Of a stretch of 64,000 nucleotides of DNA, positions 22,860 to 59,160 are shown in pieces. The DNA is from Owenia fusiformis. Taxonomy: Eukaryota > Annelida > Polychaeta > Sabellida > Oweniidae. Within the stretch, counting starts at the first letter, position 1. Each line of letters begins with the position of its first letter. Both the position numbers and the translations under genes were made by a program. The notes beneath the pieces are model-generated. The model did no database searches, was not told the DNA's origin, and was given only the letters and a program-made list of their open reading frames with translations. Location of the stretch: positions 14,367,754 through 14,431,753 of the forward strand of contig CAIIXF020000011.1 in NCBI GenBank assembly GCA_903813345.2, given 5' to 3'.

Positions 22860-24300
22860 CAGGCCATAGCACTTCCTCTACTAATGTTCCTGTATTACTG
22901 GCAGCTCCACCAAGTGTCAAAGTAAACAAGTCAGACTGCCATTCAACACAGTGAGATAATACCATGGTAACTTAAGTAAACATTCCATATAGTGGAGTGA
23001 TACCAAGGTTAGTAGGTGGTTCACCATCACATTCGACTGCAATATGAGGCTTGAGAATTTCCTCCAGTGATGAATCTGTATTGTATTACTGGCAGCTCCA
23101 CCAAGTATCAAAGAAAACAGCAATATAATTAGCTATTCCGCACAATGGAGTGATTCTATGGTAAAGTAGGTGGGGCACAATCACATTTGACTGGAATATA
23201 AGGCCAGAGCATTTCCCCTACTGATGTATATGTATTGTATTATTGGCAGCTCCACCAAGTATCAACGTAAACAATAATATAGATAGCAATTCAACACAGT
23301 GGAGTGATTCCATGGTTAAGTAGGTGGGGCACCATCACATTTGACTGGAATACAAGGCCAGAGCATTTCCTCTATTGTATATGTATTATATTACTGGCAT
23401 CTCCACCAAGTATTAAAGTAAAGAACAATATAGATAGCTATTCAACACAGTGGAGTTATTCCATGGTTAGGCGGTGCACCATCATCTTTGACTGGAATAC
23501 AAGGCCAGGGCATTTCCTCTTCTGAAGTATATGTATTGTATTATTGGCAGCTCCACCAAGTATCAAAGTAAACAACAATATAGATAGCTATTCAACACAG
23601 TGGAGTGATTCCATGGTTAGGCGGTGCACCATCACATTTGACTGGAATACAAGGCTAGAGCATTTCCTCTATTGTATATGTATTGTATTACTGGCAGCTC
23701 CACCAAGTATTAAAGTAAAGAACAATATAGATAGCTATTCAACACAGTGGAGTGATTCCATGGTTAGGCGATGCACCATCATCTTTGACTGGAATACAAG
23801 GCCAGAGCATTTCCTTTATTGTATATGTATTGTATTACTGGCAGCTCCACCAAGTATCAAAGTAAACAACAATATAGATAGCTATTCAACACAGTGGAGT
23901 GATTCCATGGTTAAGTAGGTGGGGCACCATCACATTTGACTTGAATATAAGGCCAGAGCATTTCCCCTACTGATGTATATGTATTGTATTACTGACAGCT
24001 CCACCAAGTATCAAAGCAAACAGCAATATAATAAGCTTTTCCACAGTGGAGTGATTTCATAGTTAGGCAGTGTACCATCATGTTTGACTGGAATACAAGG
24101 CCAGAGCATTTCCTCTACTGATGTTTATGTATTGTATTATTGGCAGCTCCACCAAGTATCAAATTAAACAGCAATATAATAAGCTTTTCAACACAATGGA
24201 GCGATAGCATGGTTAACTAGGTGGTGCACGATAATTTCTGACTGAAATATGAGGCTGTGGCATTTCCTCGACTGATGTATCTGTATTACTGGCAGTGGCA
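22860..24300 (-). repeat. Minisatellite of the IRAG-like terminal exon, ~150-bp unit, nine extra copies
   Basis: The marker gcagctccaccaagtat recurs at about 22901, 23092, 23246, 23397, 23547, 23694, 23841, 23995 and 24143. The parental sequence lies inside the last coding exon at 24298. Units therefore measure 147-191 bp and contain degraded copies of the sequence coding the residues after the membrane anchor, the stop codon and the first bases of the 3'UTR. The array lies directly downstream of the stop, so it probably is the 3'UTR. Confidence 0.85.
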
Positions 24301-24474
24301 GCTACACCAGGTATCAAAGTAAACAATACAGTTAGTACAGCTAATCCAAACAATATACATGCCAGAAAATAGCGCATTTGCTTCCCTGATTTGTCCCAAC
24401 TGAACTTTGAGTAAATAAGTTCAACTCTTGGTTTTATCTTTAAGACCTTCTCAATAAATGTCTCTCTGCTCTCA
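24213..24474 (-). CDS. IRAG: IRAG-like terminal exon with C-terminal membrane anchor
   Basis: Acceptor TATTTTCAG at 24475-24476, phase 2, 86 codons and a TAA at 24213-24215. After ESRETFIEKVLKIKPRVEL and a basic stretch (KSGKQMR) comes a hydrophobic run, FLACILFGLAVLTVLFTLI. About 37 polar residues follow, ending YRAPPS. One membrane span near the C-terminus preceded by basic residues is the layout of IRAG2/LRMP and IRAG1. The intron before it is 8.5 kb and holds the Pif-like gene. Confidence 0.87.
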
Positions 24475-27400: not shown

Positions 27401-30400
27401 AAGAGAATCTGGACTTGATTTGAAGATAAATCAATGCTTATAAATAATACACAAATAAATTAATTAATATCTGATTCCTTCTGCATTTGCCAGCCATAGT
27501 AATGACATGTAATAATTAATTTCTAGCATTGTGTAAAACTGGGTACTACCAACTGCCAGATCAGCCATGTTGCCGCTATTTCCAATGTCTTCCAGAAACT
27601 TTAGGTGAACTGTGAGTAGTTCATTACGGGGTATAATTTAAGTACATGTATATTCCCTATTGATAGGCATAGACTTCTGATTAACATGTGTTCAAAAAAC
27701 TATACTCACAAAGAGAAGTGTTCAAATACATAAGTTTTACTGTATTTCTTTCATATTCTAGACGTGCATATAACAGATCATGTCCAAGACCCCTGAAGTG
27801 GAATAGTGCCACTTGTACATGTGACTATAGCTCTCGTTTTATACCAGAAGGTTGTGTAGATTCTGAGGACTGTTGGGGTAGGTAGTTAAGTTCAATTAAA
27901 TATGGAACCATTTGGTGGGCTCACATGGTGACATTGTTACAGTGATCTCCCCAGGATTAAAGCACGTGGGTGTAGCACCCACCTGAGATTTTGAAAATAG
28001 GCATGCACCCATCTGAAAATCTATTTGCACCCACTTGAAAATGAGAAAAAATCATGAAAAATTGGCATATATTGACCAATTTTGGTCTAAGTTGTGAAAA
28101 TGAGAATTTGCACCTACCTGAGAAAAAATCCTGGGGAGATCACTGTGAAATTGACATGAGGATTGGTTCAAATGAGTGGTACTTTACATTTGTCTAAAAA
28201 TAGTTGACAGGTGGACAGATTAAAAGATGGATGGACAGCCAGATGGACAAAGTTGTGTTCCTATATGCTTACTGTGTCACCATGTGAGCCAAAATGCCCA
28301 AGATAATAAAAATATTTTTCATTCAACTTATACTAAGAAAATAATTCATAAAGATTATCATAACATATATTTTAATAATTGAAATGTACAAATCTCATCA
28401 TTATGTTTTAAAAATTCAACAAAACATCAGCCAGGTTAAAACCCTAAAACCATATTCATGTTATTCAGATGATCCTGTTGCACCAACTGATTGCCCAGAT
28501 CCCAGTGAACCATGGAACACTGCAAGTATGCATGACAACATTCTCGTATATGTTCAATACTGTCTTTCCTAAAATAATTTTATCAAATAGATATAAAGGA
28601 GAATTTGTATGCAGATAAGCCCTTTCATGTAGTGTACACGTATATGTCAAAAGTATGTGTTTTGAAAAATCATTAAAATCTGATTTTTTATTGAATTTCA
28701 GTGTATGCCACAGTGTATACTCCATTAAGTCTTTTACAGAGTCATTCTATGATAATAAACTTGATTTCACAGAACAATGTTGCGAGAAAGGTGTAACTTA
28801 CAATGACCACAGCTCAGGTTTTGGACGGAATTACTCCAGTGTTGAAGGGGACCCCACCATGTATGAGTTTTGTGGGGAACTAAATGAATGTCCCTATGGA
28901 CTGACATTCAGTGTGCAATACTGTGCATGTGACCACAAAAAGGGTTGGTATTTCGGTATTCATTCATGGAGATTTCATTAACAAGGCAGTAACATGTAAC
29001 AAAATATCACAACCTGCCATTTGTTACAGATATCAACCTCACTGCCGAACACCCATTGCTGGACACTGAACACAAAAAATTTTGGAGACTTAAACAATAT
29101 GTCATCATATAACACCACTTCAGAACATAGTAGCATCTACATCTTATAAACTCCATGTTATGTAATACTAACTTTCTCAAAAGCTCAATTTATATTACTC
29201 AATTTTGCTACCCTAAAACAGTTCTTTGATATTCTACAATGACATTTTATCAATAGGTGGCATTGGATGTCTCCTTTGGAACTTTGACAACCCTAGCCCC
29301 CTAGTGGATGTCCACCAAAATGTACTTATGACTCCAGTCAACTGTTCAGCATCTAATGGGCAACTCAACTGCCCAGGAACAAGCAGTTCTAGCCAACCAG
29401 GGGCAGAGATATATGTCTTACAAAAAGGTGAAGTTAATTATGAGAACTTTATGAATAATGTTTTATCTGAACAAACAATTTCAGAGTAGATTTTAAAAGC
29501 ACTGGCGGATCTGGGGGAGGGGGGGGGGGGCTGGGAGCCCCTACCCCCTTGGGTGAACCCAAAAAAAATTTGGGGCCTAAAAAAGTGGGACTTTTTGGTC
29601 ATTATTGGGCCTTTTAAGGCTAGGCCTTGTGTTTTAATTTCAGGCCAAATTTTGAAGAAAATGGGCCTCAAAATTTCAAAATTTGGGTCCACTTTTGGGT
29701 TTTAGGGGCCCAAATGTTTTCTTATCATTTCTGTGTCAAACATTATATATAGTCTTTAATGTTTATTCTATAGCATTTTTATTCAAAGAATGAATCTCAT
29801 TTTCCATTTCAATTTAGCGTACTTGGGTGTGGCAGCTACATTCTTTGGGAGATTTAACTCAAGTGGAAATGTGATGGTAATGTCCAATGAAAGTCCTGGA
29901 AATGCAGCAACTGTTTCAATTGAACTGGTTGGCCAAACACTCATAGCATCTTTCAGACTGCCTGATGATTCTGTTGACACATGTCAGGTGACATATGTAA
30001 GTTCATATTCCTTACAATGGTTTGATTTTGCTTCAATAGTGGGCTTTGTCTAGATACTATTTAAGAGGCACTAGTGCTACTCAGTGCTCATCCTTCATCA
30101 TTTAATTAGAAACATAACTTTTTGGGTTATCCACTCCTTCAAACTTGGACTATCGCAAAACTGTACTGTGAATGTTTAGTGGAAATATATTTTAGGTCTA
30201 CATGGTCAGCTTTCATTGAAGGAACTCTTAATTTTAATAGGGGTAGGAGGCGGTATAACTCTTGAAAATCTCAATTTTGCCTTCATATCACAAATTGTTG
30301 AAAACTTTGATGAAAAATGTGCCATAAAGAGTACATTCAAGCACACATCCTAGTTTTCTGCATGAGAAAAATGCAAATTCTGCGCAGAAATTCTGCATGA

Positions 30401-33400
30401 AAAAGCCAAATTCTGCACCAAATTCTGCATGAAATCTAAAATTCTGCGCCAAATTCTGCACGGGGAAAAGTGAAATTTTGTGGCTCAAGTATGTGCAAAA
30501 AATGAAATTCTTGCTAAAATCAATAATTTTTTCCAAAAAATAATAATTCAAAATTCTTGAACTCCACTCATGCTGCTTTATTCAGCGATAATGGACAACT
30601 GCGGTAATAACATCAGATGCAATTTTAATCAATTGGCGACAAAACTTACCAAATGCTCACTTGTGAACTATCACGAAATTCAAAGTATCACGAAATTCCA
30701 GATCAATATGCAGGGAATTCAGATGTCGTTTATTGATATATGACGAAGTAAAACGCAAGAAGAAGCATGATTTATTGCGTTAGAATACAAAAGAATACAA
30801 TATTAGACATATTATTGCAAAACAATTACGAGGGACAGTCATCGGTTTCAAATTTCGTGATTATGTTAGATGCAGTCTTACCTCTAAGTGCAAAGGTGGA
30901 AGTTCGAGAATTTAAAACAGATTTCAGATTTCCTCTTGAAAATCTGACAAAACACAAGTATCTGACAACAAACGAGCGGAGTCTTTGGGTGTTTAGGTGA
31001 GTGACAAATATGAGATGAGATGGTTGACTGGAAAAATCATGTTTTCCACGAAATTCTGTGCCAAAACAAAAATTCTGCAAAAAAATGAAAATGCAAATTT
31101 CTGCGGTTTTTCTGTGGCGACGCGGAATCACGGAATACTAGGATGAGTGTTCAAGCTTTATGGAGATGTTTCATGTTTTTTGTTTCTATGTTTGTATATT
31201 AACTTTATTCTAGAATTTCAACATACTTTATGACAGATGGTTCGTCTTAGCAGTTGATGGTGGGAATGTAAGACTGGCATTTGGTGACAATGATGGCTTT
31301 GCTGACACACTATGTGTAAAATCGTCATCATGTAAGTTTACTTCATGATATACAGTATACCAGGACTTTCAATAAGTTCACGGGAAAAATGTTCTCATTT
31401 CAAAGATTTTTTATATTTCCTCATGAAATTTCCACATAATGTGTAAAAAACATTTCGTTATTGATTCATTAAATATCAGTATCTCTAATTTCATTGGTAA
31501 AAAATAATGGTTACTATGGTAACTTGACTTTTGGGTAGGCGGGGCACTTTTTAAGTCATATTATATGTACATATACGTATATACATGTGTACATCTCATA
31601 TAACTATTGCTATTTATTTACAATTTTAGTCAACCTTGTTTCGAATAAATGTCCTCTTGGGCTTGGGTTCCAAGACACAGTATATAAACAGGTGAGTGCT
31701 TATCATTACCAATAGGCCAGGTCGAGAAGAAGTGTTCATTTTGAAAGGTTTTCAGATTAGAATATACAGGCTTTGTTTACTGATGGACAAATTACACTGA
31801 AGTCAATGAGAGAAAATAGTATATCCCCTCCTGGCCTAATATTTTGAACATTTAAAATAATTATTTTATCTACTGTACATGTATATTTTAACAGATTGCG
31901 TATTACTGAATAGAACATTCAGTTTGTTAATTATGTTTTTAGTTTGGATTCTGCCGGTTTGCTTGGACTCAAGGAGACATAGCGACTTACATGGCTGACC
32001 CAAGTGTAATTGGGGAGAACCCATATACTTCAAGTGGCTCATGGAATGTATTTGATCCATGGCCACAATAAAAGGCATTTACGAGAATGTGGTCCCCAAC
32101 TTGATCTGATTTTTAATACCAGGCTTTTTCCCTGTTCTTCTTATAAAATTGTAAAACATAAGCCAAATGAAATATCCTGTAATATTATTAAGAAATAAGA
32201 AAACAAGATTTTGGGATGATCACACCCCTAAACAGATAATTCTTAACTTGTAAGGGCAAAAGGTCCAGATGATAAACAATGCAGAGATACCAGCATTATA
32301 TTCTTGTAATAGAATGGTTATGATGTTAAAATAAAGATACATGAAAGGCCCATTATTGCCCGATATTGTTAATTTAATGAATTTACATAGAATTCCAATA
32401 CCATAAAAGGTTAAGCTTGACATTAATTTTGTGTTGGATATAAGCATTAATGTCTATCAAAATACTAGAAACATGTGATAAAAATATATTGTCAAGTTAA
32501 ATGGGTGGGTTTTGTTGTATTTTTTAAACTATTGAATGAATAAGTATCAAATAATCTGATGTATTTCTTTGTAATTACATTCGATTGGAAGATATCCTAA
32601 AAGGGTTTCATATACATACTCATATGTGTCCCTGTAGGAGAGTAAGAACATATTGCCATACTATAACAATATGAAAGCACAAACAGCAACATTTCAAAAT
32701 CAAAAAGGCAAACCTTTATATTTCAAACACACCATACTTATCCAACATGAAATGTCAACTGTTTCATACTATGTTTGAACTGAAAAATATTTTTTGAAAT
32801 CTGATAAATTCCCTGAGTTAGAAATTAAAAAGCTCAAAAATATAACCTTGAACCCTTTTGTAAAATCCTGCATTCATCAGATAATGAATTTATGAAAGAA
32901 TAAATGTTCAGATAACTTATCATAATTATTTGTTTCTGTGGGGGGGGGAAATCTTACCAAGCTTCCATCTGCTCTGCTATCTCACTCTGATCCATGAGGT
33001 CTTCTAGGGTATCACAGAATACTTTTTGTTGTTCCCTCAAGTCTTCTAGATCTTGAGACACCTTGGCTTTAATCCCCTCTTCATAGCTACAACAGTCCAA
33101 CAATAATAGCATATTTATACATGTATATATATTTCATTGACTCTTGGATAACTTGGCTTTAATAGCTCTTTGTAGCTACAATAGTCCAACAATAACAGGT
33201 AAACAGTGACAGTGAAGAGGTCCTTCATTTTTATGAGGCAGAGCTAAATCATACAGCTAAACATTCTTATTGAAAACACAGACTTGCTTTGAAAAATTTA
33301 TGATACATAAAATTTGACTGGATTGCAATTCAAGTAAATCTCAAACATGAATTTACACTAACATTTTTTCAAACAGCCAAATGGCTAATGAATTTTTTGA

Positions 33401-36400
33401 AGCATTTGTGAGATTTGAATATCTTTATGAATCCTTACCCTTTTTGAAATATTTCTTCTTCATTGGGTTTATGATCAGTAGATTTATCAGAACCATCTTT
33501 GGAGTATGTGATCGACCGTCTCACTAAAGTTGTACCTTGGGTACTTGGGGTAGCTAGAGTTGAGCTTGTTATGGTGGCAATGGAGGCACTCGTAGGCCCA
33601 TTTGAACTGAAATAAGGAAGAATTGTAGCATAAACTATTTTAGACAATGGCAATTTAGGAAAAAGATGCAGAAATCAGAATCAGAAATTCATGTATGGCA
33701 TACTGTTTTCTTAACAAACCTTTTTGAGGAGGAGGCAATATGGAATTGTTTCATTTCAGCCTACAGAATAAAGTATGGCTGACAAGTATATTCAAACTGT
33801 TCCACAAATTAAACAAGCCATTAACATGCAAAATGCCATCACCTGTCATTTGTTACAGATACTGAATGCAGAACACAAACCACCAAACACCAACCACTGA
33901 TGACTAACCACCAAAAACCAACCATTGAACACTGTCCACAAAAATGTTGGGAGACTTTAACAATTTCAAATGGTGCTTGATTTTCAGGGCAATGATTTAT
34001 TATGGTAAAGTGATACACAGTTTTGGAAATATGTTTGTATTTCAGAAACAGTTGACTTACACAACTACTGGCTGAAGGGATTCCTTGATATCATTGTGGT
34101 TGAGCTCCTGTGTTTTCTCTAGAGTAGGACTAGATAATATGGGGGACAGTTCAGACTGTCCTGTAGGACTATTGTCTCCTTTATCTGCCATAGAAGCCCG
34201 TCTCACAACACTAAAGATGGAGTTCTTGTTACCTGCTGAGGTAGATGCTACTATGTTCTGAAATCGACTTTTTGGATCCTAAAAAGTCAAAAACTTTGAA
34301 ATTTTAATCAACTCACATTGACTACAGATTCAGAGATGGTTCCAGGTTTTTGCTCAACATGGTTCTTAATTTTAATATTTCCTTTTTAGGCAAAATGTTA
34401 AAATAATTCATCTTTTTGATAGGACTGCAAACAGCTCTTGAACAAGGTCACATGTCATTTTTGAATTTTGAATGATGTGGTGCAAAACCTGGTTGAGCCA
34501 ACGCTGGACAGATCACTGTCATTCATATATATTATAGTCACAATAAGAAGTTCAGTGAAGATTTTAAAGTTATTTTTTGTTTCAATCATTATGTATATTT
34601 ATAAATAAGATAAGTTTTGTTGCATTGGCTATACATGTATAATGAACGTTTTAGATTTAATAGGTTAACCCAACAATACTATCAGAATCACTTAACTAAA
34701 AAAAATTATAAAAATGTTATTGAAAAACTAAATTATTGATAAACATATTATAAATAAATAAATAAAACATATGCATATGTAAAATATAAAACATTAGAAA
34801 ACATATTTATGTTGCAAGCGGGTGGAACATGAGCTCTTACATTTGAGACACTGGCCTGTCTTCCTAAAGCACCCACCGCTACGCTAGCACGCCTTCTAGT
34901 CCCCTAAACAATGAACAACACAAAATGTACAACATATATACAGGCAGTATTACACATTACAACATAAAAAATAAAAAATAAATAAATACAATAACATGTA
35001 TTACACATTACAACATGATATGAATAAATAAATAAATACAGTAAATAAACAAAATGTTTTAAGTATGCTGAAGACGTTATCAGGTAAAATGTAACACAAA
35101 CTATAGGATAGTACGACATTGAGAAGTTCTGAGGCTTTGCATGTTCTTCCCCTTTATGAGCATTAATGAACACATCTACATTTACATAAGTTGGGCTTTC
35201 TTGTATGGCACAATAATAATCAGAAAGTGCAACTGAGGCCACATTTCAAGTAGACAATCACAAATAAACCATCATACTTTACATCTAAAGCAGATCAAAA
35301 TGTGTTAATATAAAATTGATCAGTAAGCTCAGGGTCACATTTTACAATCAAAATCCAACTCCCTCAAGTTATTTTGGGAAGCAATAAGCGCACCTGATGA
35401 TATGTGATTATCATCATATATTCCTCAGGTAAATAAGAAATTAATTAATTAAATACAAATAAAAAATAATAAATACCGCACAATTATGGCATATTCAGTA
35501 AAACCTGTCTAATTTGAACGCTACTGAGATCAGTAATATAGTAAATAAGCAGGACTTGTTCATATTTCAAGGTTTCTCAATATGTAAATGAATGAGATAA
35601 TAGGGAGTTTAAGCTTGCAATATTTTTCACAACCTAAACGTGAAAAGAAAATATTTAAGCGATGCATTTGAATGGGCCATTGGTCATACGTATAGGTTGG
35701 CGTTTCGATTTTATATGCCAGTTTAAAATCCCTATTAACAAAAATGGGACCTTGTAAAAAAAATCACATTGAGAAATGTTCAGATTAGAGAGGTGTTTGA
35801 ATGTACAGGTTTACTGTAGTTGTACAACAAATTCAAAATAACAACAGTGGAATGAATACAATATTACAACATTGACAACACTGATTTACAGTACTGTACT
35901 GTAAAAATGTAATACCTCCTCTTCAACAGATTCTTCGGTAGATTTACTACGTGAGCTGACACTAGGTGGAGGCATATATGCCTCACGATGACGCAATCTG
36001 GCAGACGACACCTGATCAACAGGGGGATTCGATACAATTTCAGTGCATTCAGTTATTTATACCAAACAATAATCTTGTGAAACAATTTTTTCCACAATTT
36101 ATCATTTCACAGAAAAACAGAGAAGTAAGATTCCATTTAAAGCGATTGGATGAATTTTTGTATTGTTTGACTAAGATTTATAGAAGAAATACTGCCATCT
36201 TTTTATTTACTAGTGAATCAAAAAAGGGTTTAATCAAGAAACTTTCCTTTACATCACTCAACAAAAATTATGAACACAAATGTACAATAATTAAATGTGT
36301 AGAAAATTGAAACCTGATCTCAATAATCTGTCCACTCAAATAAGCTGTCCCTATGACAATTTTTGACTGAAATCTGTCACAATCCTAAAACACCAACGTA

Positions 36401-39400
36401 CCTTAAGACTAGTGGCTCCCCCTGTCACAGACATAGACCTCTTTCCAATGGTGTATTCCCCTGCTGTAAAACAAGCATACATAATATTATGTAATCTGAT
36501 TATACTCAAATTAACTAATAATATCCCAGCTTAAATATCCAAATATAAAATAGGCTTCCTACTACTGATTAGTCTAGTCTTCTTACTCATGCATCATGAA
36601 ACCATCCCCATACCACAAAAAAAACAAAGCATTAACATGACAAAATGTCACCACCTAGTTGCTCACAATATTATTAGTTCAATCTTGATTTGAATTTCTG
36701 AGAATTCTGTAGATGATTTTTTAAAAAAAATTGGTCAATTTGAAGCAAGTTTTTTGAAGAAGTTTTTTGAGAAGGTCATTGAAGGTGAGATCTAAAATCT
36801 AAGTCAGATTTGAATTTCTGAGAACTTGTGAGTTTGAAAAAAATTGTTCAATTTGAAGCAAGTTGAAAAAGTAACTTGAGATTGTCATTGAAGGTCAAAT
36901 CTAGTCAGATTTGAACTTTTGAGAACTTGTAAATGATTTTGAAAAATAAATTGGTCAATCTGAAGCAAGTTGAAAAAATACCTTTTTGACCTTTCTTTGA
37001 CCTTGAGAAGGTCCTTGAAGGTCACATCTTATATCTAAAGTCAGATTTGAATTTCTGTCAACTTGTAGATGATTTTGAAGAAAATTGGACCATTTGAAGC
37101 AAGTTGAAAAGGTCATTGAAGGTAAAATCTTGAATGATTGTAAAGTCAGTTTTTGAAAACGTATACATGATTTGGAATAAAATTGTGAATCAGTCAAATG
37201 GTATATTAGATAAAATTTTATATGAAATATGGTGGTCATTTTGATTTGAACAGCCATAATGGAAATTCACTCTCAAGTAGAGGTCCTATCTCCATAAGGC
37301 ATCAGCCTCTAAAACTTTAACCCATATATTCACCTATATCTGGGCTTGTTGAAGGAGTATAGAGGTTGTTCTCCTGTAGGATCCTCCTTGTCTCCTCCAG
37401 TTCATGGTGTTCTCTCTCGTACAATCTCTTCAGGTTCTCAGTATGTTGAACCATAACCTGAACAAATGAAAACATATGTCTACATTATAATTAATTCACT
37501 ACATATTAATTGTAAACATACTTTTGTATCATGTATATTATCACAATGTTAAGGGCTGTTCCTGGAATACATTTTGAATTTGTTTTTAAATTTCAAACAG
37601 AGTAATTTCTGAATTTTAAGACCTGTCTAAGTGGAACACCTTCATCACTTACAGGTGTTCCACTAACACAGGTTTTTAGTACCAGTTAAATTAGTCTTGT
37701 GCGCGCCGCTATCACTGTGTGAACTTAAATCTTTCTCGCAACAAAAATAATACAATTTTTTCTGTTATGGATTGTATACTTCCCATTCTCTCGATCAAAA
37801 ATCCAAACAATTGTTTTGAAGATCACATAGAATTGATGAAAAACTGTAAAACTATGCAATCAAATATACCTCAATAGCAGTGCTGAGACGTCTCTCTTGG
37901 TGTACTGCCCCAAGGACCTCTGCCCTACTAGACATCCTATTAGTAGTCTGAGCAAGTACTTCTATGTGATGTTGGAGTCTCTGGTAGATCTGAACACTCT
38001 CATTGTCCATACACATTGTATGTAATGACTGCAAGTATAGCAATACACATTGTACGTAAATACTGCAAGTATAGCAATACACATTGTATGTAAGGACTGC
38101 AAGCAGCAATACACATTGTATGTAAAGACTGCAAGTATATATATACAGATTGTATGTGATGACTGCAAATATAACAATACATATTGTATGTAATGATTGC
38201 AAATATAACCATACATATTGTATGTAATGACTGCAAATATAGCAATACACATTGTATGTGATGACTGCAAATATAGCAATACACATTGTATGTAAAGACT
38301 GCAAATATAACAATACACATTGTATGTGATGACTGCAAATATAACAATACATATTGTATGTAATGACTGCAAGTATAACCATACAATATTGTATTTGCAA
38401 TAATTGCAAATATAACCATACATATTGTATGCAATGACTGCAAATATAACAATACACATTATGACTGCAAATATATCAATACACATTGTATGTAATGACT
38501 GCAAATATGACAATACACGTTGTATGCATTATGTAATGACGACAAATATAACAATACACATTGCATGTAATGACTGCAAATTATACCAAATATGAAAAAA
38601 CATAAACATTGTTTGTAATGACTTCAAATATAAAAAAAATATAACCACACAATTGCAGATCTTTGTTTCAGATGCATTTTCTAATATTTCATTTTTAGTC
38701 ATTTTGACTTATATATAGACAATATTTATATTAATGTATCTACATTTCATGTTTCTGTCAAATTTTGATGGATGTTTTGAAAGTCAAAGCCAAATACTAA
38801 TATTCATAAAAATCTCAATAAGGCTCTACATAGGTAACCAGTTTTATTCAAATGTAATAAATGCCTTACTAAACCCTTTCTCTAAAGCCGTGAATATTCA
38901 TACCATTTCTGAAAAAATCCATTCAAGCGGCAGGGGATAATTTGATTTATCTCTTAGCTTTAGACAGACTTATTCTAGGAAGGTATTTATCCCACTGATA
39001 CACTGATCTTCAATTACAAGCCATACAGTTGGAATAAATCAGATGAAAACACTGCTTTTAGAGTCCCAGAACAACTATTATCATTTGCTTCCTTCAATTT
39101 CTTCATAAATCTGAAGTAGAGTTAATAAATATGTCTCAGAGAGTTTCTTCTCCAATTTTCAAAAATCAATACTACTATAAGATCACACTTGCCATCATAT
39201 TCAAGCGAGAATCTTCTTTGAAATAAAAGGGTGTTTCCCTCTTGAAATTAAGGTGTTTTTTAAAAATTAAGGGTGAAGATTTTTTGTCTACTGTATTCAA
39301 GGTTGTTTCTCTTTTGAATTTAAGGATTCTTCTCTCTGGAAATTAAGATTATTTCTCTTAAATTAAGACTATTTATCTTAGTTCTCTTTTGAAATCAAGG

Positions 39401-42400
39401 TATTTTCTCTTAAAATTAAGGTTCAATTAAGGGTGTTTCTCTCTTGAAGTTAAGATTTTTGTCTTGAATTCAAGGTTGTTTCTCTTTTGAATTCAAAAAT
39501 CTTTGGAAATTAAGGTTATTTCTTTTAAATTAAGCTATTTATCTTGTTTGTCTTTTGAAGTCAAGGTTGCTTCTCTTGAAATTGAGGTTGCTTCTCTTGA
39601 AATTAAGTTTGTCTTTTAAAATTAAGGTTGTTTTTTGATAAAAAGTTTTTTCCCTTTTAAAACAAAACAAAACAACATCAACTTGATAGAGAGGTAGGTA
39701 AAATAATAAAATAAAATAACGGAAGACATTTCAAAAATGCCACTCAAACAGATGCTCCCACCTTAAGTGCTTCCTTAAGTCCATCAAGCTCTTGATCTAT
39801 ATTTTCCTCTGCAATATTACGCTGTCGTTCCTGTAACTCTAGCCTCTTTTCCAAAGTGAGTCGATCTGTTTTGAACGCAAGGGAAATTCCCACAAACTTC
39901 TCTTCCAGTTCTTGATCATTCAGGTGTTCAGCACTGGAAATATAAATGTTTTTCATGAATTATATTTTTAATACTAAGTGCAAACTGAATATTTTCATAC
40001 TGTGTGGTTTTAGACCTTGAATAGATATAAAACTTTTCTTGGTTAGACTTGCCACCCCTTGTTTATCTTATTTAAATAAAACTAAATAAGAAAGAAGAAA
40101 GTGTGGGTAACACTTTTTGAGTAAATGGTCTCAAATTACCACCCAACCAGAGGATATGAATGTCTCCGGTTACATATTGTTTATACATAGAGAATCTCAT
40201 TTTAAGAGGTTTAAAAATGTGCATATGAAAAATTTCTAGACACCAATTTTTTTTATCTCCTTCATATTTCTGCCACGTTGAATGTAATAAATCCAATTTT
40301 GATAATTATGAATGTTTTGACCTGGCCCCTGATTCAATCAATCAGTATGGAGTGCTGCATTTGAGTCTAAAAACAAATGTTTATATGGAACTTAACAAAC
40401 CACTAAGAGATGTAATCACCTCTTACAGTTCCACTACAATAGTCTGTAATAACTTAGAGATAGTGATGTCTACTTAAATGACTTTCCGTAACAATGCTGA
40501 CTTTGAAATAAAGGGATAGTCTGATGCCCAGACCTTATACCATTCTCTCTCAATTCTCTGCATTAAGCTTAATCAGAGAAAATATTATAAAATCTACAGA
40601 GGACATTTCGTAAAACAATGCTCTTGAATGAAATAGCTTTGCTGTTAGGATCAAATATGTCCATGGTCCAAATCAAATCAGACGCTTTTCATTTTGACAA
40701 GTCAGACCATTTGATCATTTTTATTTTGAAAAAATACCTGATTTGACCATTTTCATGATGAGAGGATGAATGTCATTTCTTTTTAGCTTGTACAAAAAAT
40801 GATGAGAATAGGCAAATATTATATACAAAAGCCCGTGAAATTTTACCTAACTTGGATTTACAAAGTGAAAAGGACGATTCTCGGTTTGGAGAACAGTCTC
40901 CTGGGCTAATAATTCTTTTCATGAAAAATATAGAAATATTACCCAAATTAAACTATGAACATTCAAAAAAGGACATTTAAATCTACAAGATGTAAAGATA
41001 ACAAATTGGTCTGAAGCAGGGATAATGCTCAAATAGACCGATTCAATATAAATACAAGTCTCGATTTGGGGAAAGAAGTTCATCAGTGTACTGCGCTAAC
41101 ATTTTTTTGCGAAAAATCTAGAAATATTACCCAAATTAAATTATGACTATTTAAAAGAAGACATTCAAATCTTTATTATGTAAAAAAATCAAATTTGTCC
41201 GAAGCAGGGATAATGCTCATTTAGATTGATGAACTTCGTTCTCCAAACCGAGAATCGTCCTTTATTTGTCAATCTTATTTCTAGTAAAAATGTAACCTTG
41301 CAAAGACATATTGGCAAATTCATTTACCATTCATTTAAGAATTTAGCATGGTCATAATGCATTGTGTGTGCACCACACTATTATTGTTACCTTATATATT
41401 TTTATATATTTTTGGTATTTTTTTTAGTTTAGTTGTTTTGTAGTTTAGATATGTAGTCTACCATAGTTCTGACTAATGTAATCATGTTATGATACTATAT
41501 GTCAATAAAAGTTATATATATATATATATATACCTCAGTCCCGTAGCACCCCCCCCCCCCCCAGCCAAAAAATCTTTCAAAATCATGCAGTTTTCACCAT
41601 TCTGAGAACTTTTTAAGTGAGTGATTTTCACAGTTATCATCACACGCCCCCCCCCCTCCCTAACACAAAATCCTGGATCCGCCCCTGCCCCCTTGGCAAA
41701 TCCTGGCTACGGGCCTTAACCTATTAAGATGACATATCCATAAATATAAGCAAAGCTCGCCAAAAGATTTCCATCAGGAACATTCCACAAAATATGTGTA
41801 AATGCAACATAAATCATAATTTATCATATAAACCAAATAAAACCGATACACATAATGTTAGTGTTGCCTGATGAAGGATTTTTAGGGTCAAACAAGTCAA
41901 CAAATGCACTCTAATCTCTAAAAGATTGATCCCTCCTTTTTTATCTATTCTATTATACTGTAGTAGTCTGTGTGCATGCACATGTATAATCAGGGGCATT
42001 ATATCTATTGACGGAGGGCAATTCACATGCTGGTTTGACAAGGAGTGACTCTGAATCGCAAAAACTTCCATATAGAATGTTTGCAAAGAAACCATGTAAG
42101 ATTCATTCTACATACTCCTTGTATATAATCACAGATCTGAGCCTTTTTAGGCTCGTTTGTAGGATTATTGAATCCCCCGAATATAATGTCACTCCTTCTT
42201 ATTAAATAATTATTTGGAGGGCTGATAGCAAAATACCAGTTTGATTTTCAAAAATTCATACCTTGGTAATCTAAGATGCCCTGATAGAGCATTCACTGAT
42301 AATAGATTGTTTAAATTGAGTCACCCATTAAATCCTGCTAAATAAAATGAATCTTGCACCTAGTCTCTTGACACCCTCACATTCTACTTTACCTTCAAAT

Positions 42401-45400
42401 GGCCTAAAGAGTGTATGGGGGGAGGGTCACAATCACTGGAAGCAAGCATTAAAATGCAACCACCTATCTAAAGTGTAACAATTGTTACATATGCCAGGCC
42501 CGTAGCCAGGGGGGGTTCGAGCAAAACCCCCCCCTGGCCAAAAATTCTTTCAAGATCATACAGTTTTTCACCATTCTGAGCACTTTTTAAGTGATTTTGG
42601 CCATTTTTGGACCAAAATTGTTAAAAGTGAACCCCCCTGGAATTTTCCAAAAAGTGAACAAGTCCTGGCCATGGGCCTGTATGCTAAATGCCAACACAGA
42701 CACCAAATGCCAGTCACTAAACAAGATATTAAATATTAACACGCAAAATGATATTTGTCAAATGTTAACTTGCCATTTGTTGCAGATACCAACCGCTGAA
42801 CACTAACCACCAAACACCATCCACAAAAAGAGGAAGACGAGAACAATATATCACCACCTGTTGTGGTGACTTAAAAATAAGTCACTTTAAAAATGTCACC
42901 ATAATGCTTTATCAAAACCACATTTATCTAATACGTGTACTCCAAGAGGCTGTGGATCCCACAATAATGATATGTCACCTCTGTAAAATTGTAGTGACAT
43001 AATAAAAATGTGTCTCTTTAAAATGGTGGTGACATAAAAAACAATGAGTCTCTTTAAATTGGTGGTGACATAAAAAACAATGAGTCTCTTTAAATTGGTG
43101 GTGACATAAAAAACAATGAGTCTCTTTAAATTGGTGGTGACATAAAAAACAATGAGTCTCTTTAAATTGGTGGTGACATAAAAAACAATGAGTCTCTTTA
43201 AATTGGTGGTGACATAAAAAACAATGAGTCTCTTTAAAATGGTGGTGACATAAAAAAACAATGTGACCTTACTTGTTTGCTTTAATTGCTTGTTTCACCA
43301 CTTTATGAAATGCATCAGCCATCATGAACAATATCCACACCTTTCTGACTTATTAATCCATATATATGAAATGTTACAATTTACTGATCCATACACAGGG
43401 CCATCATCTCACTTATGAAGTTTTACTTTTCATTAATCCATACATCTGTACATAGAGTCGTCATTTCACTTATAATCCATACACAGGGTCATCATTTCAC
43501 TTATGAAGTTTTACTGATCCTCTTAGCTATCCCTTTGTATGTACTGCTACTATATCAATGTTTCCTGTCAAAACACTACTCTTTATATGGCCCCATATTG
43601 CAATACATTTTAATAAAATATATCCCCTGATTTTATTACTGAATTTAATATCCAAACCATTCTTTCGTATAATTGGTTTAGATCCAAACTGATCCTGTCG
43701 GCAGTTGATTACATAGTGTCAGATGATCTGTTTTATGGTGAGCTCAGTCATAAAATTGCTTTTCATCAAGAGTGTAACTTTTAGTTTTTATGCGTTCATT
43801 TCACCTTTTTCATTTAGGTGTGTCATAGTTTAGACTGACATGTATACATTTAGTATATGCTTACATTTTACTTCAACTACAGACATTCCTTACGTTCTTA
43901 TATCTGAGGTTATTGTTTATCTTTCTATTATACCTTGCATCTCAAACACTCACTGTATGTTAAGACAACTCCTTTTAATTTATAGGTCTTCAAACTATAC
44001 AGCAATTCCTATTAGGGATATATCCTGGTATATTGTAAATTGAATAATAACATTTTCTTTCCTCTGACTGGATGAATATCTTTGTTATTCTTTAAGTTTG
44101 AGAATTCTGAAGCCTTCTATGTCTGAGACACAATCTTATACAAATCGCCTACTCTATTGGAATGATGTCAGGTACCATTGGATAGGATAGCAGGCGAGAC
44201 CCCTAGCCGAATGAAGATTTTTTTAAATGAAATCATGATGTTCACCATTTCAAGCTCTTTTCAAGTGATTTTGGGCCAAAATTATCAAATATGAAACCCC
44301 CTTGGAATTTAAAAAATTGACCCCCCCCCCTTGGCAAAAGCTGGCTATGGGCCTGGATAGTCAGTATTGTGTTGTGTGTTTCATTATTTTTGTAACACTG
44401 AAATATGTTATTGGAAATAATTATGAGAAAAAATTCAAATAATGTATGTGTACTCAACTAGATTATTAAGAATAACACATGTGCATGTATCTACAAATAA
44501 AGTTCATCCTATTAAAGATATAAACCATGTTACAGATTGGTTAAATACTTCTGCATGTACTATTATACATATGTATGTACTATTAATTCTAAAATAGGTT
44601 TAAAGGGGCTATTAACTTGGTAGATGAAATAACCCCCCCCCCCCTCCTCCTAAGCCTTTTTCATATATCAAAGTTTCTAACATTCCTAATTAGTAAGCAA
44701 AATCCCCTGTAAAAGACCCATTCTGTTGATCTCATAGTCTTGCTTCAAGACCCTTGACCCCACCCCCACCCCCTTATCAACAAATAATGGTCTACTTAAC
44801 TGAATACAATATACAGGATATGGTACACTCCCACATAACATGAACTTGCATAGCATATATTTGAGTAAATAGAATACATTTGCTAGCGTGATACCTTTAA
44901 TACTGTAGATGTTATTTTGATAACTTTGTTAATATCAGTTTCTCAGGTTGTTAACTTTCAAAATAGAAGTCTTTTTATCTTTTGGGCATATTTGTATTGA
45001 TATCAAATATTACTATATCAAAGTAAAATGACTTTATTACTTTCTGTTTTTTTCTGCAAGTTTCTTTTTCTACCTCATTTCAAAACCGATCAAAATCTCC
45101 CAACTTTATGATTTTCATTTTTTATTTTCAACTGTGAGCAAATTTTCTAACTGGGTCTAAATGGGTATTTTTGAATTTCAAATGGGGTGCAGTGACTGAT
45201 TTTTTCAAAAATTGAAGAGGATTTATAGCAATAAGTATAACTTTACCCATCATGTTTTCTTCCATTCATATGTTTGTTCATCTAGCCAACATCCAACAAT
45301 CAAAATGCTTTTCACAGATCAGAAAGGGCAAAAACTCAGGTGGGTGCAAGCCTGTTTTTAAAATTTCAGGTGGGTGCTGTGGCACTGCACCCACTTGCTT

Positions 45401-57400: not shown

Positions 57401-58972
57401 ACAGTTTAAAGGGTTGCATTTGATTGAAACGGTTGCAAGAAATGCAACCAAAATTGTCAAGCGTTTACAATGGTTACATATGATTGAAACATTTCAATGA
57501 GTTTACAACCAAAATTGTAATGGTTGCATCGTAACGGTTGGCATGGTTGCATAAATGATCGGATCAATGATTGTACAATGATTGTGCAACGGTTTAAATT
57601 CGGACTTTCAAGGTTGAATTTTTTATAAGGGAATATCTCAATATATGGTGGAAGACATTTTGAAATGCTCAACAAGACCTGGGAGGAACACAATAAATAG
57701 ACAAGTTGGAACCAAAACAAGCACACACAATTCCATTCTAAAACTCATACTTCCTCACATGTTCAAAATCTGATTTGATGACCAGAATGCAAGTGCATTC
57801 TGGGATGATACTTTCTGTGTGGATTTATGATTAAATGAATGATCTTATATAAACTTTGTAGTATAATGTTGTAAAGATGTCAGATGTTATACATTTGCTA
57901 AGAGTCATTTAAGATTGGAACAAGAGGGAGAATAATCCCAAGGTTCAAAGAAGACATATGTCTGTAATGAAAATTTGTATTGAGAAGACATCGTCTCTGA
58001 TTGGTCAAATGGACAGAAAAACACTGGTGGTTTCAAAATTTTCTAAACATGCTTCGAACAATATTATGTTAATTTCTGGGGTGTTAACTGATATCATATA
58101 GGCTAATAGCTTGTTATTTTACATGAAGATAAAGAAAGATACAAGGAATATGCTAACATTGATTAAAACATCACAACGACATGTAATATTCGTAAACAAG
58201 CCGGTGAAAATTCTGACAAACAAAGGTGGTAAGCAAGAGATGTAACTATGTCTGCCATCACTAAAGCTCTGGGACTTTCCATCCTCTTGATTGGAATTTG
58301 AATTCAGATTTGACTGCCATCTTTACAAAGTTAAGTTGATAAAATATCTCAACCCATTTTTCAATACATTCTAGTGCCTTAGATATGTTTGTTCATGCCT
58401 TCTCTTTTGATACCAGTTAGGATATACCTAGATGCCATGATATGCCTGATACAATGTAAATTGAACTCTTGTGGAATTTTGATGCATTATTTTCCTAAGT
58501 ATTTCCTTAACACTTAAACCTTACAGTTTTAAAATAGAATCTAACAAAAAAATTCAGAAGTTCACGAGTGCTATATGCTAATGCAGATCAAGTAGAATGA
58601 GCGATTTAGCAATTAGACAGTTTGCATTTTTACTTGACAAATGCACAAATATATGACCAAAAGATTTTATACGAGACTGTAATACCTTAATGGTTCAACT
58701 CATGGTTAATGATTAATGGTTTCTTACCTCTTTTCCTTGTCTGCCCCATTCAAACCAAGTTTCTTCAGAAAAGCATTTGGCAAGTTTGGGAACGAAGATC
58801 CATTTTCCTGACCTTCCCTGGATTCCCCATTCACATGCACCGCATCATCACTTTTTCCATTAATATCATCTTCAGGCTCAGCATGAACTGCTTTAGGGTC
58901 TCCATCGTTTTCATTTTCAGCAAGCTCTGGCATCTTAGGGGAACTCTCTCTACGTTTCTTTGCTAGGTTTTC
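24213..58972 (-). CDS. IRAG: IRAG1/MRVI1- and IRAG2/LRMP-like protein, tail-anchored, IP3-receptor associated
   Basis: Exons 58728-58972 (or alternative first exon 52371-52417), 39762-39933, 37870-38028, 37334-37457, 36402-36463, 35916-36011, 34841-34903, 34061-34278, 33439-33606, 32958-33086 and 24213-24474 join with matching phases. The short form has 499 residues. The long form has at least one more 5' exon that I could not find. Family signatures are ELEEKFVGISLAFKTDRLTL with the following EKRLELQERQR coiled coil, SSRAEVLGAVHQERRLSTAI, VMVQHTENLKRLYEREHHEL and a C-terminal membrane anchor. In vertebrates these proteins sit on the ER, bind IP3 receptors and, for IRAG1, are substrates of cGMP kinase I. 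The linker exons carry RRAS, RRRAS and RRSI motifs fitting PKG/PKA phosphorylation. A Pif-like gene lies inside its last intron. Confidence 0.87.
24880..24955 (+). repeat. Dispersed repeat, CATTTGTTACAG family, copy 1
   Basis: GCAAAATGTCATCACCTGCC is followed by TTTTGTTACAGATGCCGAAC and ACTGTCCACAAAAA. Related copies are at about 28990, 33822, 42737 and 53445, plus a fragment at 36631, all in the same orientation. Confidence 0.75.
25510..25640. mobile_element. 131-bp foldback element
   Basis: ACAATTGTAGACCTCTC at the left end is inverted, with 16 of 17 bases matching, at the right end (GAGAGGTCAACAATTGT). Inner GGTCAACCG motifs are also inverted. It lies in the last intron of the IRAG-like gene. 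Confidence 0.7.
26903..26908 (+). promoter_or_regulatory. Candidate TATA box of the Pif-like gene
   Basis: TATAAG lies about 60 bp before the ATG at 26965, which would place transcription start near 26933. A short overlapping upstream frame (ATG 26954 to TAG 26977) lies out of frame across the main start and may reduce translation. Confidence 0.5.
26965..32071 (+). CDS. Pif/BMSP-like secreted protein: two chitin-binding domains and a laminin-G-like domain
   Basis: Eleven exons: 26965-27037, 27205-27225, 27527-27611, 27762-27877, 28469-28525, 28740-28943, 29257-29427, 29818-29996, 31214-31331, 31630-31691 and 31943-32071. Phases match throughout and give 404 residues. A signal peptide (MLRLAVFGILWVMTNAF) is followed by a peritrophin-type CBM14 domain at about 34-80 (CCRYFQC, CPRPLKWNSATCTC). 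A second, divergent CBM14-like domain lies at about 131-183 (CCEKGVTY, CPYGLTFSVQYCAC). A LamG/concanavalin-like domain follows (LLWNFDNPSP, AATFFGRFNSSG, YDRWFVLAVDGG, VRLAFGDNDGF). In molluscs Pif and BMSP use chitin-binding plus LamG domains in shell or periostracum matrix. This protein lacks their VWA domain. It is probably extracellular and chitin-associated. The exon 6 acceptor could also be at 28772, which keeps the frame. Confidence 0.82.
27940..28145. mobile_element. 206-bp MITE with ~19-bp perfect inverted repeats
   Basis: The left end CAGTGATCTCCCCAGGATT is exactly inverted at the right end (AATCCTGGGGAGATCACTG). It sits in an intron of the Pif-like gene. Relatives are at 21750-21959 and, reversed and truncated, at 45331-45420. 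No clear target-site duplication is visible. Confidence 0.88.
28990..29090 (+). repeat. Dispersed repeat, CATTTGTTACAG family, copy 2
   Basis: TATCACAACCTGCCATTTGT is followed by TACAGATATCAACC, GCCGAACACCCATTGC and GGACACTGAACACAAAAA. It lies in a Pif-like intron. Confidence 0.75.
29503..29722. mobile_element. MITE-like element, CTGGCGGATC family
   Basis: It opens ACTGGCGGATCTGGGGGAGG followed by a long G run. The interior is CCAAAAAAAATTTGGGGCC, CCTTTTAAGGCTAGGCCTTG and TTAGGGGCCCAAATG. A partial copy of the interior is at 48070-48186 and of the left end at 12978. It lies in an intron of the Pif-like gene. Confidence 0.65.
30336..31154. mobile_element. ~0.8-kb element with imperfect terminal inverted repeats
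   Basis: The left end TTCAAGCACACATCCTAG and the inverted right end (CTTGAACACTCATCCTAG) match with few changes. Both ends carry many AATTCTGC motifs. Internal open frames (77 and 101 codons on opposite strands) show no recognisable protein. It lies in a Pif-like intron between the two halves of the LamG domain. Confidence 0.65.
32330..32335 (+). terminator. Candidate polyadenylation signal of the Pif-like gene
   Basis: AATAAA lies about 260 bp after the TAA at 32071. The next IRAG-like exon starts 620 bp further right on the other strand. Confidence 0.55.
32958..33086 (-). CDS. IRAG: IRAG-like exon with a partial duplicate next to its acceptor
   Basis: Encodes YEEGIKAKVSQDLEDLREQQ and a further helix ending EIAEQMEA. 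Acceptor CTGTTGTAG at 33087-33088, donor GCTTG|GTAAGA. Reading through the donor gives TGG then TAA, so intron retention would end the protein without its membrane anchor. A degraded copy of the exon start and acceptor lies at about 33150-33200. Confidence 0.85.
33150..33200 (-). repeat. IRAG: Degraded duplicate of an IRAG-like exon start and acceptor
   Basis: TTGGCTTTAATAGCTCTTTG, then TAGCTACAATAGTCCAACAA, repeats the exon/intron edge at 33063-33110 (TTGGCTTTAATCCCCTCTTC, then ATAGCTACAACAGTCCAACA). On the minus strand the copy keeps a TAG acceptor. Confidence 0.75.
33439..37457 (-). CDS. IRAG: IRAG-like middle exons: second coiled coil and phosphorylatable linker
   Basis: Exons 37334-37457, 36402-36463, 35916-36011, 34841-34903, 34061-34278 and 33439-33606. 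The first continues the coiled coil (VMVQHTENLKRLYEREHHEL). The others form a Ser/Thr-rich, probably disordered linker with basic-directed sites: GKRSMSVT, TRRRASVAVG, GRQASVS, VVRRASMAD and LVRRSITYS. Several exons are 3n (96 and 63 nt, phase 0-0) and could be skipped without a frameshift. The family's cGMP-kinase link makes the RRxS sites plausible targets; this is inference. Confidence 0.85.
33822..33965 (+). repeat. Dispersed repeat, CATTTGTTACAG family, copy 3 (expanded)
   Basis: ATGCCATCACCTGTCATTTG and TTACAGATACTGAATG are followed by repeated ACCAAACACCAACCACTGA-type segments and CACTGTCCACAAAAATG. The inner ACCAACCA pieces vary in number between copies. Confidence 0.75.
35498..35820. 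mobile_element. Decayed MITE, CAGTAAAACCTGTCTAA family
   Basis: CAGTAAAACCTGTCTAATTT on the left and TACAGGTTTACTGTAG on the right form an inverted pair. Similar ends or interiors (CCTGTCTAAGTGGAACACC type) occur at 37617-37690, 47540-47710, 52655-52820 and 61912-62105. Confidence 0.6.
36680..37170. repeat. Intronic tandem repeat, ~110-128-bp unit
   Basis: About four or five degraded copies of a unit containing GTCAGATTTGAATTTCTGAG, TTGGTCAATTTGAAGCAAG and AGGTCATTGAAGGT lie between two IRAG-like exons. The minus-strand open frame here is not supported as coding. Confidence 0.75.
37870..38028 (-). CDS. IRAG: IRAG-like exon whose 5' edge lies inside a 34-bp tandem array
   Basis: The 53 codons open SLHTMCMDNESVQIYQRL and contain SSRAEVLGAVHQERRLSTAI, a block conserved with vertebrate IRAG proteins. 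Acceptor ACTTGCAG at 38029-38030, donor GAG|GTATAT. The acceptor and first seven codons are one copy of the minisatellite at 38004-38600. The reading frame stays open for about 140 further codons into that array. Confidence 0.88.
38004..38600 (-). repeat. 34-bp minisatellite containing a 3' splice site
   Basis: About 17 copies of a unit that on the minus strand reads TTTGCAGTCATTACATACAA, then TGTGTATTGCTATA. The last copy is the functional acceptor and first 20 or so bases of the exon at 38028. Most copies keep TTGCAG or TTTGCAG. The array has no stop in any of the three minus-strand frames over most of its length, so it leaves overlapping open frames of 150-201 codons. Confidence 0.9.
39225..39660. 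repeat. Degenerate short tandem repeat in IRAG-like intron
   Basis: Loose repeats of TCTCTTTTGAAATTAAGGTT, about 20-24 bp per unit, lie just past the donor of the exon at 39762. Confidence 0.7.
39762..39933 (-). CDS. IRAG: IRAG-like exon, first conserved coiled coil
   Basis: Acceptor TATTTCCAG at 39934-39935, donor CTTAAG|GTGGGA. The exon encodes AEHLNDQELEEKFVGISLAF, then KTDRLTLEKRLELQERQRNI and AEENIDQELDGLKEALK. The FxxxSLAFKTDRLTLEKRL stretch is the most recognisable family block. It starts in phase 2 and accepts either upstream exon. Confidence 0.9.
40869..41263. mobile_element. 395-bp MITE with 26-bp perfect inverted repeats and duplicated core
   Basis: The left end begins AAAGGACGATTCTCGGTTTG and its 26 bp are exactly inverted at 41238-41263. 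The interior holds two copies of a segment of about 190 bp (AGAAATATTACCCAAATTAA, then CTGAAGCAGGGATAATGCTC), so the element is itself an internal duplication. Confidence 0.88.
41536..41717 (+). mobile_element. MITE, GGCCCGTAGCCAGG family, copy a
   Basis: The left end CAGTCCCGTAGC and right end CCTGGCTACGGGCC are inverted. The interior has CTTTCAAAATCATGCAGTTT and poly-C runs. A (TA)n run at about 41512-41532 abuts it. Confidence 0.75.
42495..42679 (+). mobile_element. MITE, GGCCCGTAGCCAGG family, copy b
   Basis: The left end CAGGCCCGTAGCCAGG and right end CCTGGCCATGGGCCTG are inverted. The interior is TTTCAAGATCATACAGTTTT and GATTTTGGCCATTTTTGG. Confidence 0.8.
42737..42850 (+). repeat. Dispersed repeat, CATTTGTTACAG family, copy 4
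   Basis: It contains CTTGCCATTTGTTGCAGATA, ACCAACCGCTGAACACTAAC and CACCATCCACAAAAAG. Confidence 0.75.
43008..43262. repeat. 36-bp tandem repeat, seven copies
   Basis: The unit is GTCTCTTTAAATTGGTGGTG plus ACATAAAAAACAATGA. Because 36 is a multiple of three the minus strand shows a 12-residue repeat in an open frame; I treat it as non-coding. Confidence 0.92.
44191..44355 (+). mobile_element. MITE, GGCCCGTAGCCAGG family, copy c (degraded)
   Basis: The left end is AGGCGAGACCCCTAGCC and the right end GCTGGCTATGGGCCTG. The interior has ATCATGATGTTCACCATTTC and GTGATTTTGGGCCAAAATT. Confidence 0.65.
44360..45330 (-). other. IRAG-like intron sequence without a recognised feature
   Basis: AT-rich, with a C run near 44631. 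I see no exon or structured repeat. Confidence 0.5.
45331..45420. mobile_element. Truncated, reversed copy of the CAGTGATCTCC MITE
   Basis: Read on the minus strand it starts CACTGATCTCCTTACCATTA, then AAAGCAAGTGGGTGCA and CACCCACCTGAAATTTTAAA, matching the left half of the 27940 element. Confidence 0.7.
45421..48060 (-). other. IRAG-like intron sequence
   Basis: No exon recognised. A decayed inverted-repeat element with GTGTTCCACTT motifs lies at about 47540-47710. A GGGGGGTGCATCACACCCCC hairpin-like piece lies near 46638. Confidence 0.45.
48719..52045. repeat. 66/67-bp satellite array, about 50 copies
   Basis: The unit is GGCTCATCTTTCACATATTG, then GTCCATCTAACAGTCCTCTC and ACCTATTATAATAACAATGT plus a short AT tail. 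Two unit lengths alternate: 66 bp (GTATTAAA) and 67 bp (GTGTTTAAA). Larger blocks are repeated: 49074-49228 resembles 49258-49412, 50277-50480 equals 50676-50879, and 51300-51390 resembles 51620-51700. It starts about 330 bp downstream of the alternative IRAG-like first exon. Short open frames in it are artefacts. Confidence 0.95.
52371..52417 (-). CDS. IRAG: Alternative first coding exon of the IRAG-like gene
   Basis: ATG at 52417 opens MEGRTSRKGGARRRK, then the donor CG|GTATGT. The exon ends in phase 2, the same as the 58728 exon, so both splice in frame to the exon at 39933. Two CCAATCA boxes lie 39 and 63 bp upstream. The basic peptide would replace the acidic N-terminus of the long form. 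The exon is inferred from frame, splice site and promoter boxes; no family similarity supports it. Confidence 0.6.
52450..52490 (-). promoter_or_regulatory. Internal promoter with two CCAAT boxes
   Basis: CCAATCA occurs on the plus strand at 52456-52462 and 52480-52486 (the second as CCAATCAGCGA). They are 39-70 bp upstream of the ATG of the short exon. The same CCAATCAGCGA string occurs at 62751 in the promoter-like region at the right. No TATA box is seen here. Confidence 0.55.
52955..53165. repeat. 26-bp minisatellite
   Basis: About eight copies of AATTCTCAATAAGGCAATAC plus TCTTGC, with variants in the last bases. It lies about 540 bp upstream of the alternative IRAG-like ATG. Confidence 0.9.
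53445..53535 (+). repeat. Dispersed repeat, CATTTGTTACAG family, copy 5
   Basis: AAATATCATCACCTGCCATT and TGTTACAGATGTCTACTG are followed by AACACTATCCACAAAAAAAG. Confidence 0.75.
54438..54720 (+). mobile_element. MITE, GGCCCGTAGCCAGG family, copy d (rearranged)
   Basis: The left end CAGGCTCGTCACCAGGG is followed by the family interior (TTCTTTCAAAATCATGCAGT). The right side is lengthened with inverted GGCCAAA pieces and lacks a clean end. Confidence 0.6.
54804..57631. mobile_element. 2.83-kb DNA element with 44-bp perfect terminal inverted repeats
   Basis: The 44 bases from 54804 (starting CCCTTATAAAAAATTCAACC) are exactly inverted at 57588-57631. Inside both ends are many GCAACCATT/AATGGTTGC motifs (54900-55100 and 57410-57580). 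The interior is AT-rich, holds a 20-bp repeat at 56101-56180 (GGTTGAACAGCTAATTAAAA) and an open frame of 86 codons at 55433-55693 that I do not recognise. It looks like a non-autonomous element with subterminal binding sites. It lies in an IRAG-like intron. Confidence 0.88.
57632..58700 (-). other. IRAG-like intron sequence without a recognised feature
   Basis: I see no exon, repeat array or RNA gene. Confidence 0.5.
58728..58972 (-). CDS. IRAG: IRAG-like exon, charged N-terminal segment (long form)
   Basis: The acceptor ATGTTGCAG opens at 58972 and the donor is AGAG|GTAAGA at 58727. The 81 codons are highly charged (KKRRESSPKMPELAENENDG, then AEPEDDINGKSDD) and end NAFLKKLGLNGADKEKR. The segment is probably disordered. 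The exon starts in phase 0, so a coding or non-coding exon must exist further right; I could not identify it up to 64000. Four 48-bp repeats abut the acceptor. Confidence 0.8.
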
Positions 58973-58973
58973 C

Positions 58974-59160
58974 TGCAACATATAAGTATAAATTCTTGGA
59001 ATAATTTTACGTCATATTTCTTGCAAAAAATAAGTATAAATTCTTGGAATAATTTTACGTCATATTTCTTGCAAAAAATAAGTATAAATTCTTGGAATAA
59101 TTTTACGTCATTCTTCTTGCAGCATATAAGTATAATTTTTTCGAATAATTTTACGTCTTA
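58974..59160. repeat. 48-bp tandem repeat next to an IRAG-like acceptor, four copies
   Basis: TAAGTATAAATTCTTGGAAT, then AATTTTACGTCAT and TTCTTGCA, recurs from 58983, 59031, 59079 and 59127. On the minus strand each copy ends in TTGCAA or CTGCAAG, a variant of the real acceptor TTGCAG at 58973. Confidence 0.88.

Follow-up and report, generated by a model that had tools for sequence, protein, structure and literature searches.

A minisatellite across the predicted 3' splice site of an IRAG exon in Owenia fusiformis

How does an exon keep one working acceptor when its own edge has been repeated many times in the intron before it, and how does such a repeat arise? These questions are raised by a predicted IRAG/MRVI1 gene on the minus strand of Owenia fusiformis contig CAIIXF020000011.1, where a 34-bp minisatellite lies over the upstream edge of an exon, here called exon E. 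The window is the whole 64,000-nt stretch of this contig that was analysed, and all positions are window coordinates. We consider it likely that the array is of the type described in amphioxus as "mirages", that it arose by duplication of the exon edge, that the exon-proximal acceptor was retained, and that the upstream decoy acceptors are mostly passed over and near-neutral. Mirages are tandem repeats over exon-intron boundaries, and splicing at them is reported to be regular (PMC3087553).

The repeat and the exon

Tandem Repeats Finder (TRF) delimited the minisatellite at 38009-38589, with 17.0 copies and 82% matches. Manual segmentation gave 18 copies with exon-like starts running from 38621 to 38028, the most distal copy being decayed. 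These figures agree with the first-pass annotation, which had placed about 17 copies of a 34-bp unit at 38004-38600 and had described the unit as holding an acceptor and about 20 coding bases. The minus-strand consensus unit reads TGTTATATTTGCAG then TCATTACATACAATGTGTAT; its first 14 bases match the end of the intron and its last 20 the start of exon 38028-37870, each unit thus joining roughly 14 nt from the intron's 3' end to 20 nt from the 5' end of the exon. Exon E begins with the 20 exonic nt of the terminal copy; all 20 are identical to the consensus, and 2 of the 14 intron bases of that copy differ. This is a tandem repeat spanning an exon-intron boundary, the boundary being placed by protein homology. 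A 33-base unit query with at most 3 mismatches found 10 matches in the window, all of them within the array, and none in 100 shuffles. When the array was masked and the unit compared by BLAST with the rest of the window, the best 30 matches were just fragments of 10-16 bases with E values of 0.49 or worse. Long open stretches run across the array in all three frames of the minus strand, as had been claimed: 207, 188 and 152 aa from stop to stop.

The translation of exon E matches the Pfam family MRVI1 (IRAG, PF05781) at profile positions 237-290 with E=5.9e-14. Further IRAG exons were sought by three-frame minus-strand Pfam scans of 20101-30002, 30001-37502, 38601-48503 and 52101-62002. An upstream exon (U) and a downstream exon (D) were found (Table 1). 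The three exons stand in the correct order with agreeing junction phases, and their joined protein scores 172.0 bits against MRVI1, above the gathering cut-off of 27. Exons U and E apparently meet at profile positions 236/237, if no gap is assumed. Exon E lies between an upstream intron of 1733 nt and a downstream intron of 412 nt. As judged from this homology, exon E is a real IRAG exon. A search of solved structures returned one chance-level match and no relative. No relatives of the protein or of the unit pattern were found in viral_contigs or genome_contigs, collections of viral and prokaryote sequences that are little informative here, and neither Rfam at gathering scores nor ARAGORN gave a match.

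Table 1. Coordinates of the IRAG exons and exon-edge repeats in the window.
Feature	Position	Strand	Basis or remark
Exon D, downstream IRAG/MRVI1 exon	37335..37457	minus	Pfam scan; donor end placed by eye at a GT
Exon E, IRAG/MRVI1, 159 nt, phase 0 to phase 0	37870..38028	minus	Pfam MRVI1; acceptor comparison
34-bp minisatellite	38009..38635	minus	TRF limits 38009-38589; 18 copies by hand
Intron half of terminal copy, TGCTATACTTGCAG	38029..38042	minus	predicted working 3' splice site
AG of sole in-frame upstream decoy	38299..38300	minus	exon would start at 38298, adding 270 nt (90 aa) without a stop
Exon U, upstream IRAG/MRVI1 exon, phase 2 to phase 0	39762..39933	minus	Pfam scan
Probable exon S, IRAG/MRVI1, phase 0 to phase 2	58728..58972	minus	acceptor in terminal 48-bp copy
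Second exon-edge minisatellite, 48-bp unit, 4 copies, ~44 nt intron + 4 nt exon	58969..59157	minus	TRF

Origin of the repeat

The MRVI1 profile favours the 38028 acceptor. With it the joined protein reaches its 172.0 bits, versus 152.2, 142 and 138.8 bits with the three in-frame AGs inside exon E, which were ruled out as alternative acceptors by these lower scores. The idea that the terminal copy holds the working splice site is thereby supported, as a prediction. The repeat-coded part of the exon contributes to the match: masking all seven residues of the heptapeptide SLHTMCM to X costs 9.4 bits, and masking single residues costs 3.4 bits for Ser, 1.2 for Leu, -0.4 for His, 0.3 for Thr and 4.3 for Cys, the two Met not being masked singly. 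The array-consensus heptapeptide SLHTMCI scores 171.8 bits in the same place. When 19 other registers of the unit were put there, all 19 fell below 172.0 (160.3-168.1 bits); they are mutually overlapping and make up 19 of the 33 other registers on the same strand.

In one register, then, the unit codes for residues that fit the MRVI1 family, a fit that a foreign satellite could reach by chance alone. We regard the register test as moderate evidence for an exon-derived repeat, and the edge of exon E is probably old and the seed of the array. The earlier proposal that the array grew from a real exon edge is supported in this sense, seeding at the edge being likelier than a foreign satellite. In that other scenario, an unrelated satellite arose in or was inserted into the intron, and the exon edge was overwritten by the last copy or captured from it. 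The locus offers some ground for the idea, since other minisatellites abound in it (after merging, 12 arrays make up 20% of 37335-64000), but the better fit of the heptapeptide than of any other register tried argues against it, as does the finding that elsewhere in the window only short unit fragments occur among the matches listed. We judge such an origin very unlikely.

By sequence, the IRAG arrays match the already described mirage kind, and the addition is that one IRAG gene has two of them (the second is described below), which extends a phenomenon reported only from lancelets in the papers found. As in amphioxus, many units keep the splice signals and some do not, and the units of 34 bp and 48 bp fall within the 10-72 bp published for Adh3, those of the globins being about 150-160 bp (PMC3087553). 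The IRAG case differs in its 34-bp unit, in its 17-18 copies, versus 6 and 3 units in two BflGb6 haplotypes, in the gene concerned and in being read from one sequence. In lancelet PGBD5, tandem repeats of 60 bp and 108 bp likewise lie over splice sites (PMC3902484, which cites Adh and troponin C), although the units are longer, the 108-bp one is a triplication and the gene is another. It has been suggested that introns may be gained by way of mirages (PMC3087553). Intron gain by tandem genomic duplication (PMC4974935, PMC3443670) also draws new splice-site arrangements from tandem duplication; here, in contrast, there is no new intron, just multiplied acceptors, the donors of the unit being judged by eye. 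A literature search, largely at title level and so no proof of absence, gave no clear case of boundary-spanning minisatellites outside lancelets, and among the intron minisatellites of earthworm metallothionein none spans a boundary in the portion of PMC12783039 examined.

Decoy acceptors and the choice of site

The array is a natural test bench for the choice by the spliceosome of one acceptor among about 15 similar ones, of which the nearest decoy, copy 38062, shares its 24-nt lead letter for letter with the predicted site. Of the 17 copies other than the terminal one, 14 have an AG in the homologous position (one of them as AAG), and copies 38539, 38403 and 38196 have lost it. The first-pass annotation had stated that most copies keep the AG and a pyrimidine-leaning lead. 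The AG part stands; the lead is barely pyrimidine-rich, with 13 pyrimidines in 24 positions in the terminal copy (manual count). GC in the window is 31-39%, lower than in amphioxus. On an approximate 3' splice matrix the predicted 38028 site scores 0.83, at the 92nd percentile of 6738 background AGs; copy 38062 equals this score, copy 38096 reaches 1.56 and the other 12 of the 14 AG-bearing decoys lie between -3.60 and 0.53. Within 14-45 nt upstream, an exact yUnAy motif is present for the predicted site and for 5 of the 14 decoys. The predicted site has a branch-site-like TTTAC at 29 nt, located in the exon-derived part of the adjacent copy; the distances are 27-29 nt for decoys 38062, 38096 and 38264, 30 and 20 nt for 38573, and 39 nt for 38437.

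Since 34 is not a multiple of three, it had been proposed that only every third copy would keep the exon frame, each step adding about 34 residues, and that length-variable protein isoforms could result. The copies do not behave in this way. Owing to indels and lost AGs a single AG-bearing upstream copy, 38298, is in frame, and it would add 90 residues; the remaining 13 of 14 shift the frame and lead to a stop 94 to 661 nt before the end of exon E. With frameshifts and early stops in 13 of 14 decoys the idea of length-variable isoforms, in which in-frame decoys would add blocks of repeat-coded residues, fails, and we hold it to be extremely unlikely. The largely open frames and the stop-free decoy 38298 speak for it. 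Against it, the would-be in-frame copies 38196 and 38403 have no AG, and the insert of 90 residues, net hydrophobic with a mean Kyte-Doolittle value of 1.29, would fall in the coiled-coil region of the MRVI1 family. Both 38196 and 38403 read CAA where the AG is lost, and they have flanking sequence in common, so that the loss may be one event. We do not claim a selective disabling of in-frame decoys: the AG is lost in 2 of 3 in-frame versus 1 of 14 out-of-frame copies, a difference with a hand-calculated Fisher value of about 0.06 that may go back to that one event.

In the explanation that we favour, a stretch of 34 bp across the acceptor of an old IRAG exon, 14 of them intronic and 20 exonic, would have been duplicated in tandem. 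We infer that growth was directed into the intron, where ordinary minisatellite turnover may have brought the array to its 17-18 copies. The exon-proximal copy would have stayed the authentic acceptor, kept by both splicing and coding. Several upstream copies would be credible decoys by their AG and, in a few, by a consensus branch-site motif in the exon-derived half. The spliceosome would mostly skip them, be it through exon definition, with its preference for the acceptor closest to the donor of the exon, or through help that the sequence of exon E gives to its own acceptor. Occasional use of a decoy would nearly always result in a frameshift and an early stop, and noisy splicing of this kind, also suggested by the first-pass annotation, is possible.

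Published and compositional data bear on both proposed reasons for skipping. According to the abstract of PMC9225289, large flanking introns go with a preference for those sites that are nearest across the exon. When a beta-globin 3' site was duplicated, with 14, 55 or 205 nt of exon beside the proximal copy, that copy was skipped, only the distal one was used, and splicing was very inefficient (PMC5389562). As for enhancers, GAR triplets (GAA/GAG) are absent from the 352 nt of the intact array, which is one unit repeated, and occur at 5.0-11.4 per 100 nt in the four exons (5.03 in exon E), 5.35 in the rest of the upstream intron and 3.16 in the next intron.

Several observations weigh against the explanation by exon-edge duplication and terminal-site choice. 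Chance matching of the heptapeptide to the profile is only roughly bounded by overlapping registers, 19 of 33 sampled on the same strand. The argument from exon definition is built on large introns, and the downstream intron here has 412 nt; moreover, section 9 of PMC9225289 states that acceptors overall prefer the upstream 3' site and that exon definition merely reduces this preference. The enhancer argument is weak, GAR being as dense in the rest of the upstream intron as it is in exon E, and for this reason enhancer content is not claimed as the sole reason for site choice. Finally, the plausibility of the decoys as sites is lowered by the 12 of 14 that score below the predicted site, on a matrix weak enough to put the exon U acceptor merely at the 71st percentile, and by the 9 of 14 without an exact branch motif.

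The array might also act as a splicing rheostat, appreciable use of decoys lowering functional IRAG through nonsense-mediated decay, and the more so in longer alleles. The means would be at hand: 14 decoys carry an AG, 2 score at least as high as the predicted site and 5 have an exact branch motif. The stops reached from 13 of the 14 lie at least 94 nt before the end of exon E, beyond the 50-55 nt rule of nonsense-mediated decay. The overall preference for upstream acceptors in PMC9225289 (section 9) points the same way. However, splicing is reported to stay regular at the lancelet boundary repeats (PMC3087553, PMC3902484), and the AGs have not been purged from the array, which suggests that decoy use is cheap, although recent homogenisation would look alike. 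On balance we consider a rheostat unlikely.

A second exon-edge array and other features of the window

A second minisatellite in this gene closes with TTGCAG, the probable acceptor of a probable exon S, and with the first 4 bases of that exon; its three upstream copies have GCAA/G in place of GCAG/G. Exon S alone has no Pfam match, and none was found either in the three-frame scan of 52101-62002. Joined to exons U, E and D it raised the MRVI1 score by 16.5 bits to 188.5 (cut-off 27) and moved the start of the match from profile position 184 to 150. An in-frame ATG is present 9 nt upstream of its acceptor, and exon S may instead be a first exon.

Two of the four IRAG exons found thus start inside a terminal repeat copy. 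Set against the 20% of the region that arrays cover, this is unremarkable. It is unusual if judged by the share of positions, 1.1%, for which the low end of an array falls in the 25 nt beneath. The count is post hoc, and selection would halt any array at an exon edge. The other arrays at 42979-43263, 52943-53163 and 61625-61738 show no evident exon edge by eye. It is a long shot, on present evidence, that this genome recurrently seeds minisatellites at 3' splice sites and that the length of the 38028 array tunes IRAG output through frameshifting decoys and message decay.

The predicted 18.8-kb intron between exons S and U also holds a 3.3-kb satellite (48720-52045) whose unit measures about 67 bp. 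At 61576-61588 on the minus strand, TTTTGCAGGTAAG places an acceptor directly before a donor, as in recursive splice sites. This pattern has 1 match in the window versus 0.17 expected, and at least one was found in 16 of 100 shuffles, so that the match is possibly due to chance. At the other end of the window, a 114-bp tandem array at 2121-5724 (31.6 copies, 94% matches) lies inside an open frame of 1971 aa that looks EGF-like by eye, and the neighbouring frame at 6771-7595 has a Pfam EGF match.
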